This document shows positions 55,064-59,149 of a stretch of DNA of 64,000 nucleotides, piece by piece. The DNA comes from Fragilariopsis cylindrus CCMP1102 (Eukaryota > Bacillariophyta > Bacillariophyceae > Bacillariales > Bacillariaceae): NCBI GenBank assembly GCA_900095095.1, contig FMBT01000422.1, positions 1 to 64,000 of the forward strand, written 5' to 3'. Under the pieces are notes generated by a model that was given only the letters and a program-made list of their open reading frames with translations, did no database searches and had not been told where the DNA came from. The first letter of the stretch is position 1. Each line of letters opens with the position of its first letter. A program made the translations under genes and the position numbers.

Positions 55064-55402
55064 CACTCTCTCTCTCTCACACTCTCACTCTCTCTCTCTC
55101 CTCTTCTCTCTCTCTCTTCTCTCTCCTCTCTTCTCTCTTCTCTTGTATGGTGTATTAATACTCTTATAAATTCTCATACTCTCATCGTCTATTGTCAATT
55201 CGTCTATTGTCAATTCGTCAATTGACAAATAATAAGTTGGAAGAAATTCAGTCACAAAATATAGAGTCGAGTCACGCGTTCACCTTTTCAAACGTGTGAT
55301 ATGATTCAGTCAGGCTTGTTTAGAAAATTGAAAATCTACAAATCTACAAATTTTTAATTGAGAGTTGCATGAGAGATTGTGAAAGACGATCGAAGATCGA
55401 AC
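55064..55402. repeat. long direct repeat, copy A
   Basis: A CT-rich tract (to about 55142) followed by about 260 bases starting CTTGTATGGTGTATTAATAC and ending near GAAGATCGAACGGCACG. Copy B (58757-59055) repeats it in the same order and orientation with scattered substitutions and small indels. Copy A lies between the start of the PAF-AH-like gene (minus) and the start of the S9 peptidase gene (plus), so it may serve as promoter DNA for either. Confidence 0.9.
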
Positions 55403-55599
55403 GGCACGCAAATTACTCGTGTGACTAATTTCCGGCATGATGCCTTGCTTCGTCGTATACAAAACGGATATAGTTTAACATCTACTAACATCTTCATGTT
55501 CATGTTAAATGTAATAACAATACCGTAACAAGCCATTGTATTATTTATGAGCAAACACTACATACAGTAGATATTGATTGAGCCACCGGGACCGTCACC

Positions 55600-58212
55600 A
55601 TGAACCGACTCCTTTGTATCATCCTTTTCGTTTGTCAGAGCCATACAATTAGCGCAATGAGCATCTACGATCGCAGCACCTTGCCATCTCGTCCAGTACC
55701 ATCGTTATCGTCACAACAGAATAAGATTGGAGCAGCAGCAGCAATCCACAACGATGAAAACACCAGCAAAAAGATCCTAGACGCAGCCCGGCTAATCGGC
55801 ATGACCCGCGTCGGATCAGCCGTAGTATCCCCCAATGGCCAAACAGCAGTCTTCCACACCTCCGACTACGATTTCACCAACAAGAAATCAAACCAGCAAC
55901 TCTGGCTAGCCGACCTGCAACTCGCATCGACGCTGGACGACACTGCCATTCGTCGGCACGATCATCTCCGAAAGCTCACGGAGGGGAAGCAGTATGATTG
56001 GGCATCGGTGTCATCACCCCAATATTCACCGTGTGGGGGATACCTTGCGTTTCTCTCCAATAGGAAGGACAAGGATAAGAGTAGTGTTTGGGTATTGCCA
56101 CTCGATGGACCGGGAGAGGCGAGGCTGCTTGCGGAATTCCCGATTTCTGTGGGTGATCTGCATTGGACTGCGCATGGGGGGATTGCCGTGTCGGCTTCAG
56201 TGTACGTTGACCAGCAGTCTGTGGATGATGGTGGGAATGGCAAGGATGCCATGACTGCAACGGCGGATAGGGATAAGGCTCTAGCGGACGATGCTGTACT
56301 GGGTGGTCTGGATGCTGTGCTGTATCACAAGCTACCTATACGGGAGTGGGATCGTTGGCTTGATGCGAAAATGGCACATCCATTCTATGTCCCTGTCACT
56401 GATGCTGCTGTGACATTGTATAATGCCACGAACGCAAAGGATTTGTTGGCAGGGATTCCAACAGCAGTACCATCGGGTGCATTTGGAGGTAGCGAGGATT
56501 GGTCAATTTCTAGCCAAGGCCATATGGCATTCTCGGCAAGACCACCTCTGGCATCGGACGAAGCGTGGACAACAAATCGAAATATTTATCTGAAAACAAA
56601 TCATCTCAGACAGGATGGGAAGGATCAGAACAATGCTGAGGATGATCCATTGGGAACATGTTTGACTTTGGATAACCCAGGATTCGACACGAACCCGACC
56701 TTTTCCCCTGATGGAAAATACCTTACGTGGTTGACAATGGCTGGACCAGCCTACGAGGCGGATGCCATTGGCATACAGCTGTACGAACTCGAAACGGGAG
56801 TGACGTCCACGCTCCTGAAAGCTGAGGAGGATTGGGAGTATTCTCCACATTCATTGACATGGTCCAAGGATGGTCAGCGATTGTATTTCACCACGGACAT
56901 GAGGTCGAGGGGAGCGTTGTGCTCGATGGATGTGGCAACTGGTGCAAAGGGAGGTATCACAATCCACAGTTCGGAATCATCGTTGTCGTTGCATGGAGAG
57001 ATTGAAACGAATGATGATGGAGAGCGATCGTTTCTCACTACCGTACAATCTTTAACAATGCCCTCCGAGTTGTTCTTGACAACGACAACCACAAAGGACA
57101 CCAAAGATAAGGGTGCAACCCAACGACAGCTAACACATTTCAATACGGATACAATATCCGAAACTTCCTTAGGCAGGCCAGGAGAGATCATATACAAGGG
57201 TGCCAAGGACGAAGACGTACAGGCTTGGCTCGTACGCCCTGCTGGATTGAGCATCGAGGAAGAGGAAAGAATCAATAGCGGGGGCAAACCAACAAAGAAA
57301 TACCCAGTGGCCGTACTCTACCATGGAGGGCCCCAGGGATCCACAGGTGATGACTTTCATTATCGTTGGAATCTACAGTACTATGCCTCCATGGGATTTG
57401 CAGTATTGGCGCCCAACTTTCACGGCTCCACGGGGTTCGGACACCAGTTCTGCCGTGATATTTCCGGGAATTGGGAGGTTGGTGGTATTGATACGATTGC
57501 CGGTGTTCGTGCAGCCTTGAAGAAGTATCCTTGGTTGGATCCGGAGAGGGTTGTTGGCTTAGGTGCATCTTATGGTGGATATACGAGCAACTGGTTGAAT
57601 GGGAATGCGCCCAAGGGCATGTTCAAGGCACTAGTTTGCCACTGTGGTACCTTTGATTTAAAATCATCGTATTATGCAACGGAAGGTAAGCTATACTTCT
57701 TGAATCCCTGCCAAAAATTGACATACTTTATATTCATAACTGTATTACTTACCGAAACATCATTTTTACAGAGCTCTTTTTCATGGAAACCGAGTTTGGT
57801 GGACCCGCTTACACAGATCGTTCCCTACAGAAAGATAGCCCCTATCAAGCGTACAATCCATCGACCAAGGTGCACGAATGGGAAACACCCACTCTCGTGA
57901 TACATGGTGCCAAGGACTTCCGCCTTGTGGAGTCAGAGGGCATTTCCACATTCACGTAAGCTATACTCCTGAACTCCTGTCCAAAATTGATTCTCCTTTA
58001 TATTCATAACTGTATTACTTACCTTTTTGAAATGTCATTTATACAGAGCTTTACAACGGCGCAATATTCCATCCAAGCTTTTATATCTCCCAACAGAAAA
58101 TCACCACTGTCTCAATTACCAAAACTCCATGGTGTGGCATGAAACTGTCATGAGCTGGATTAAGGAATGGACAGCATCCTCGATCGAAGGCGAAGATGAA
58201 ACTTGCGAATGA
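55600..58212 (+). CDS. S9 family serine peptidase (dipeptidyl/acylaminoacyl-peptidase type)
   Basis: Three exons: 55600-57685, 57772-57955 and 58047-58212, giving 811 residues. A signal peptide (NRLLCIILFVCQSHTISA) is followed by a beta-propeller domain (about residues 60-540; GSAVVSPNGQTAVFHTSDYD, TFSPDGKYLTW, SLTWSKDGQRLYF). The catalytic alpha/beta-hydrolase domain has VLYHGGPQGS (oxyanion loop), VVGLGASYGGYTSNW (Ser), VIHGAKDFRLV (Asp) and TENHHCL (His). All three catalytic residues are present. The enzyme should cut di- or tripeptides or acylated residues from peptide N-termini, in the secretory route or outside. The gene is GC-rich (60-base lines at 55801 and 56101 count 58% and 60%). 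Its two introns are near-copies of each other. Confidence 0.9.
57686..57771 (+). repeat. intron 1 of S9 peptidase gene, homologous to intron 2
   Basis: An 86-base intron beginning GTAAGCTATACT and ending TTTTTACAG. Internal words CAAAATTGA and TTTATATTCATAACTGTATT recur at matching places in intron 2. The exon base context after the acceptor is AGCTCTTT here and AGCTTTAC at intron 2. Confidence 0.85.
57956..58046 (+). repeat. intron 2 of S9 peptidase gene, homologous to intron 1
   Basis: A 91-base intron beginning GTAAGCTATACT and ending TTTATACAG. It matches intron 1 over most of its length, with small indels near CTCCTGTCC and before the acceptor. Confidence 0.85.
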
Positions 58213-59149
58213 AAGACGGCTTTCACCCTTTCTGATAGCAGCAGTAGTCAATATTTGGGATCAAAATCAAAAGCGTTACCAAAATGCAGATGCTACAAAC
58301 CATGCTAGTATGTGGCTATCACTCCAATATTTAGGATCCAATATGCTTTCTAGCAGGGGCATGGCACTTGTAGTTTCTGTCCAGTTATGAACAGCGAACA
58401 GCTGTGGATTGTGGGTAGATTGCAAGATATGTCAATTAAATCACCGTTGAATAGCACAATTTCCACAAACAACTGTACTTAAAATTCGACTAAACTAATC
58501 GATACCGGCTAGTAGCGTAGCTGCCTTGACTATCGTCCCACCCCCGAATGCAGGCAATTGAGTATTGGGTATTACGTAGGTTGAAGCAAAAAAAACTAGA
58601 TTGACTTTTAGATGACTGTTATGTTCTACTCGGCTTCAAGTGATAGACCGGAGAGCAAACCATTTGCTGGTGCCCAGAGAGCAAGTTTCAGCCTATTTTT
58701 TTGCAGTAGTGGTACAATCATCGTCATAACATGCCTCTCGGGCAGCATCAGCCCCTTCCTCTCTCTCTCTCTCCTCTTCTCTCTCTCTTCTCTTGTTTGG
58801 TGTATTAATACTCCTATAAATTCTCATATTCTCATCGTCAATTGTCAATTCGTCAATGATTGACAATTATAAGTTGAAAGAAATTCCAGTCACAAAATAC
58901 TTTAGAATCGAGTCACGCGTTCACCTTTTCAAACGTGCGTGTGATCGAGTCAGCCTTGTTTAGAAAATTGAAAATCCTACAAATCTACAAATTTTTAATT
59001 GAGAGTTGATGCATGAGAGAGATTGGTGAAAGACGATCGCGAAGATCGAAGAGCACAAGAGCAGTTGTGTCTATTATCGACAGAGATACAAATTGAAAAT
59101 ATTGCGAAGTACTATTATTATTATTATTATTATTATTATTACTGTGCAG
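58213..59149. other. intergenic, right half is repeat copy B
   Basis: About 540 bases of unremarkable sequence follow the peptidase gene, then copy B of the direct repeat, then an ATT trinucleotide run (about 59112-59140) just before the next ATG. Confidence 0.45.
58757..59055. repeat. long direct repeat, copy B
   Basis: Same order and orientation as copy A at 55064-55402: CT-rich tract, TGTATTAATACTCCTATAAA, GAGTCACGCGTTCACC, and TTTAATTGAGAGTTG. Its right end is about 95 bases from the ATG at 59150, so it probably serves as that gene's promoter or leader. Confidence 0.9.

Follow-up and report, generated by a model that had tools for sequence, protein, structure and literature searches.

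Within the window, by which we mean the whole stretch of 64,000 nucleotides of Fragilariopsis cylindrus DNA analysed in this study, a gene for an S9 (DPP5-like) peptidase carries two introns whose likeness to each other is far above chance. The copy comprises an entire intron: its boundary coincides with the 5' splice site, and at the 3' side it either coincides with the splice site or lies 4 nt beyond it. The sequences support the view that one intron was copied from the other, or that both were copied from a third which has since been lost. A single old duplication of an intron inside this gene, with RNA-mediated intron transposition as its most likely route, is in our judgement probably the correct explanation.

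The peptidase gene and its two introns

The gene lies at 55600-58212 on the forward strand, and its model comprises two introns in a coding sequence (ATG...TGA) of 2436 nt. Exon 1 (55600..57685, 2086 nt) is an open frame that ends in GAA G and matches Pfam Peptidase_S9 at 3.1e-23. Exon 2 (57772..57955, 184 nt) starts with AGCT and is covered when the spliced protein is aligned to PDB entries; taken alone, this piece reached 22.3 bits (1e-4) against the S9 profile, for which the cut-off is 22.6. Exon 3 (58047..58212), taken from the coding sequence model, starts with AGCT as well and ends in TGA; all three exons are on the forward strand. On removal of both introns an open frame of 811 amino acids is obtained, with S9 peptidase matches spanning both junctions. 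Residues 60-798 of this product match NCBIfam NF053518 (dipeptidyl-peptidase Dpp5) with 365 bits, a score under the model cut-off of 900. The gene is flanked on both sides by a direct repeat of ~300 bp (window 55110-55407 and 58759-59056), the copies of which are 85% identical.

Intron 1 (57686-57771, forward strand, 86 nt, phase 1) and intron 2 (57956-58046, forward strand, 91 nt, phase 2) both read GTAAGC...TACAG. The preliminary description had called these 86- and 91-base introns near-identical, and the shared features it named were confirmed: the first 12 bases, an exact TTTATATTCATAACTGTATT and an AGCT next to both 3' splice sites. In the introns TTTATATTCATAACTGTATT is followed by ACTTACC, and the branch-like TACTTACC shares one T with TTTATATTCATAACTGTATT. 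Between the two introns there are mismatches at 17 of the 86 aligned positions and one 5-nt indel. A block of intron 1 free of mismatches to intron 2 (57726..57757, forward strand) consists of a 28-base core, which includes TACTTACC, and then GAAA; directly before this GAAA an insertion of TTTTT is found in intron 2 only.

Local alignment of the pair scored 52, against a mean of 9.6 (sd 1.8) and a maximum of 18.5 for 2000 dinucleotide-shuffled pairs, and a 20-mer allowed up to 3 mismatches occurred twice in the window, where 0.03 occurrences were expected. The likeness starts exactly at the GT of the 5' splice site and ends 4 nt (AGCT) beyond the 3' splice site; it spans both exon-intron boundaries, unlike a repeat internal to an intron. 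The 40-nt exon flanks gave likeness scores of 4.0 on the left and 5.0 on the right, which were equalled by 999 and 883 of 1000 shuffles respectively. The exons flanking the two introns are unrelated and the intron phases differ (1 vs 2), and a tandem duplication of exon plus intron is thereby ruled out.

Both introns appear to be of the U2 spliceosomal type, having GT-AG ends, a branch-like site and a reading frame that is restored in the predicted spliced product. The branch-like word is TACTTAC in three intron copies and TACTAAC, the classical branch-site word, in one allele of intron 2, where TACTAACC is found. This word lies 20 nt from the acceptor in intron 1 and 25 nt in intron 2, and the branch site is likely to fall within the conserved core. 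The 5' end and the branch region contain the two halves of an imperfect inverted repeat of 12 nt, with 10 of 12 positions paired in intron 1 (matched by 0.35% of shuffles) and 9 of 12 in intron 2. This repeat stops short of the 3' end by 18 nt in intron 1 and by 23 nt in intron 2; neither intron has an inverted repeat at that end, and the stem is absent from the predicted fold of one intron 2 allele. None of the folds was clearly better than those of shuffled sequences (intron 1, z -1.43, with 19 of 200 shuffles folding as well; intron 2, z 0.17; the other intron 2 allele, z 1.20). An RNA gene borne by an intron was also considered and rejected, the only Rfam match up to E 10 being one of 17.4 bits at 57900-57968, outside the core, for a family with a gathering score of 55.

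Insertion sites, origin and relative age

The state of the gene before insertion can be read from 80 bacterial relatives (the best 80 of 140 relatives found), which are 44-53% identical over about 234 amino acids and in all of which (80/80) the coding sequence is continuous through both intron positions. At junction 1 splicing restores TEEL, and of the 81 rows (diatom included) 78 have EEL and 3 have DEL. At junction 2 it restores F-T-A-L, with FTAL in 51 of 81 rows and close variants in the others. The junction residues are free of gaps in all 81 rows; 80 of the 81 do have a gap no more than 10 columns away from site 1, which in the 10 rows inspected is a single column 7 residues downstream. 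Among the three PDB alignments examined, 8wt1 agrees at both sites, and two additional residues are present at junction 1 in 5yzm and in 5yzo, which is nearly its twin; this counts against the explanation favoured here. Since the spliced protein reads like its 80 intron-free bacterial relatives, the insertion was seamless, with no residue gained or lost. No target-site duplication fits, and no duplicated exon base is needed at either site; a duplication of AGCT, at which the sequence by itself might hint since this word is found at intron positions 4-7 too, is disfavoured because it would need exon bases before insertion that are missing in the bacterial relatives.

The gene was likely transferred from bacteria. 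In the trees the diatom protein is grouped in a set of 16 rows, the other 15 being bacterial (Myxococcota, Pseudomonadota, Acidobacteriota), with a support of 100/100 in the first tree, whose root is worthless owing to faulty outgroup rows (taken from the wrong strand, or truncated where an exon ends), and of 98 SH-aLRT in the second (quick mode, 81 rows, no outgroup). The diatom protein sits on a long branch (1.6-1.7), and the sampled rows besides the diatom are all bacterial, with no other eukaryote among them. Other S9 matches within its own genome are just 31-36% identical to the peptidase. The placement of the protein inside a bacterial set points to a gain of both introns after the transfer.

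The alignment of a second contig, C356, to the window is collinear to just past the gene and consists of five long segments, 93-98% identical and separated by stretches that do not align; we read this contig as the other haplotype. Both introns occur there at the corresponding places, and an assembly artefact is ruled out, as the pair is present on two contigs, each with private differences. The alleles differ at 1 of 86 positions in intron 1 and 3 of 91 in intron 2 (Jukes-Cantor 0.012 and 0.034), whereas every cross pair of intron 1 with intron 2 differs at 16-17 of 86 (Jukes-Cantor 0.21-0.23). On this comparison the copying is, in terms of divergence, about ten-fold older than the split of the alleles.

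Some further differences were observed on C356. Its allele of the gene is without one G at window position 57336, and exon 1 is thereby thrown out of frame; this G falls in a GGG run, and both an assembly error and a null allele are possible. The downstream copy of the ~300 bp repeat is shortened to ~56 bp on this contig, and beyond it no further alignment to contig C76 was found. Downstream of the gene, at about C356:144100-145550, there is a tandem array with a period of ~200 bp, which likewise has no alignment to C76.

Search for further copies

With either intron as the query, BLAST of the genome (67.9 Mb, 818 contigs) at E<=10 returned only the two introns and their alleles, that is, two places, or four counting alleles, all in one gene. 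The search scored the best candidates only and skipped very common words, so that its result is strong but not absolute. The preliminary description had proposed that many further introns with the same core would speak for an intron family, and BLAST returned none. A lack of other copies, which that description had named as one half of a refuting result, thus holds within the reach of these searches. Neither the size of at least 4 similar introns by which a family is defined in the available part of PMC9860276 nor a spread over unrelated genes is seen for this pair. Of the more general suggestion of an introner-type intron gain, the gain by copying is supported, with 17/86 differences and a seamless site, and the introner is not, no third copy having been found by BLAST and no target-site duplication being present.

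Searches for short words allowing up to 3 mismatches gave a mixed picture. The 5' word had 72+66 matches (138) against 154+123 (277) for its reversed control, and the core word had 27+27 matches (54) against 12+18 (30). Of these 54 core-word matches, 4 are exact and correspond to the known copies, 1 has 2 mismatches and 49 have 3. As controls, three putative introns were taken from the 13 candidates of an ab initio intron finder, a crude predictor; they matched themselves and, in 2 of the 3 cases, a place on C356, and nothing else.

Repeats were also surveyed in a sample of 197 kb (C76:1-124000, 40 kb of C88, 10 kb each of C184 and C293, and 13 kb of C356). Among the 28 repeat pairs of 45-400 bases found there, 4 have GT and AG within 6 nt of their ends, namely the intron pair itself, the repeat on either side of the gene, a tandem repeat with abutting copies and a pair of 116 bp whose copies are 7.5 kb apart; no second intron pair was recognised in this sample. 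The 116-bp repeat (C76:116311-116426 and 123845-123960, 98% identical) may mark the two termini of a recent mobile element. Viral contigs gave no match to an exact 23-base stretch from the core and none to the protein. Elsewhere in the 67.9 Mb genome, the ice-binding domain PF11999 had 53 matches, all above the cut-off (one of them only when taken together with adjacent matches), with several falling in one gene in some cases and alleles perhaps counted twice; 14 control genomes had 0.

Routes of copying and relation to known systems

According to the explanation we favour, a spliceosomal intron would first have arisen close to the 3' end of a bacterial-type S9 (DPP5-like) peptidase gene and would then have been copied once to a second site in the same gene, the two sites being 184 coding nt apart. 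We infer that the copying passed through RNA. The excised intron may have reverse-spliced into the mRNA of its own gene before an AGCT, after which reverse transcription would have yielded a cDNA that recombined with the gene's 3' portion; in a close variant of this route, a reverse transcriptase would have switched templates onto the intron at AGCT. The RNA route is favoured because boundaries that coincide exactly with splice sites follow from it without added assumptions. Both junctions lie within the last 14.4% of the coding sequence (0.02 under random placement, a weak result), and since cDNA primed from the 3' end would favour late sites, this placement counts, weakly, for the RNA route. 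Unrelated flanking exons and a seamless insertion at a position that is intron-free in the 80 bacterial relatives are features of intron transposition within one gene, and both are found here. Against this route, the accessible text of PMC3443670 states that a Prp22 mutant was needed for every demonstration of reverse splicing, and that the intron in these cases re-entered no position but its original one. The differences between the introns are patchy, with 32 successive matching columns among 77 inner columns that hold 17 mismatches, an arrangement reached in 0.00046 of permutations. A single copying followed by even decay predicts no such block, so that later partial conversion or constraint probably acted too.

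The main rival to the RNA route is DNA repair with AGCT microhomology, where a double-strand break or a replication fork at an exonic AGCT would have been repaired from the other intron, with the 4-nt microhomology at the 3' end, end joining at the 5' end and selection keeping only the seamless product. The common AGCT carries the likeness beyond the 3' splice site by exactly 4 nt, and a sharing of 4 nt between random positions of the coding sequence was seen in only 0.5% of draws. The sharing past the splice site is equally compatible with microhomology in copying at the DNA level. An insertion-site preference for AGCT had been proposed at the outset; the shared word is real, and two sites fit a preference or microhomology alike. 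The 5' side, however, is without microhomology and yet the copy starts exactly at GT, which would call for a lucky joint or strong selection, and we regard this rival as unlikely. We give a little less credence, and so consider quite unlikely, that two older and independent introns were later homogenised, either through conversion or because one of them reverse-spliced into the position of the other. The patchiness and the mismatch-free block of 32 columns do suggest local homogenisation or constraint, and reverse splicing may favour positions that are already intronic, as noted in the accessible text of PMC3443670. Ordinary conversion, however, would find no homology outside the introns, the exon flanks being unrelated, and yet the likeness reaches both splice sites.

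That the pair are the last recognisable members of a low-copy or decayed introner, a mobile intron family, appears very unlikely. Two full-length sense copies, the imperfect inverted repeat and the surplus of core words over the control (50 besides the known copies) are in its favour. Against these stand the failure of BLAST to find a third copy with either intron, the 5' words, which are fewer than in the reversed control, and the absence of another recognised intron pair in the 197 kb sample. Moreover, there is no target-site duplication, the bacterial relatives having EEL or DEL at one site and FTAL in most rows at the other, without additional residues, and the inverted repeat is not 3'-terminal, lacks its predicted stem in one intron 2 allele and belongs to introns that do not fold clearly better than shuffles. 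Least credible of all, to the point of being barely worth entertaining, is a likeness maintained by function through the same regulatory or RNA element in both introns. The identical 28-base core with its branch-like TACTTACC would suit such an element, but no Rfam match came near its gathering score, the folds were not clearly better than those of shuffles, and constraint could account for the retention of a core and not for likeness from end to end.

How introns are gained remains a matter of debate, and in few cases can a new intron be traced to its source. A source and its copy in the same gene, together with intron-free bacterial relatives that give the reading before insertion, make a clean test case. 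More broadly, it is possible, and we put it forward tentatively, that diatoms copy introns inside single genes via RNA, and that here an intronless bacterial gene obtained a first intron which seeded the second in the same transcript. If RNA copying inside single genes is true, it would constitute a slow background route of intron gain that would have been missed by the introner survey of PMC9860276. As far as its available text goes, that survey needs at least 4 introns for a family and removes pairs from genes encoding similar proteins; with such a filter and such a minimum it would presumably drop pairs within one gene. The available main text makes no mention of diatom, Bacillariophy, Fragilariopsis or Phaeodactylum. 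Among literature titles and the openings of abstracts, a scope in which subscription papers were mostly not included, no report of introners or of same-gene intron copies in a diatom was found.

Introners as described in the accessible part of PMC9860276 (Micromonas, Aureococcus, fungi) are like the diatom pair in that the introns resemble each other end to end, and those of fungi are described there as lacking target-site duplications and terminal inverted repeats; the diatom case differs from these families in consisting of two copies in one gene. The alpha-amylase of Basidiomycetes, to judge from the portion of PMC3584928 consulted, gained introns after horizontal transfer of the gene from bacteria, and shares with the diatom case that introns were gained in a gene of bacterial type. 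Table 1 of PMC3443670 (2012), in the part available, gives 14 unambiguous intron transpositions, from Mycosphaerella and Oikopleura. The closest known case is that of Oikopleura dioica, for which the accessible text of PMC3879977 describes 4 near-identical intron pairs among about 75,000 introns, with both members in the same gene, and reports their attribution to reverse splicing. There, too, two similar introns occur in one gene without a large family, whereas the diatom pair is older (~20% different), is present on both haplotype contigs and resides in a gene of bacterial type.
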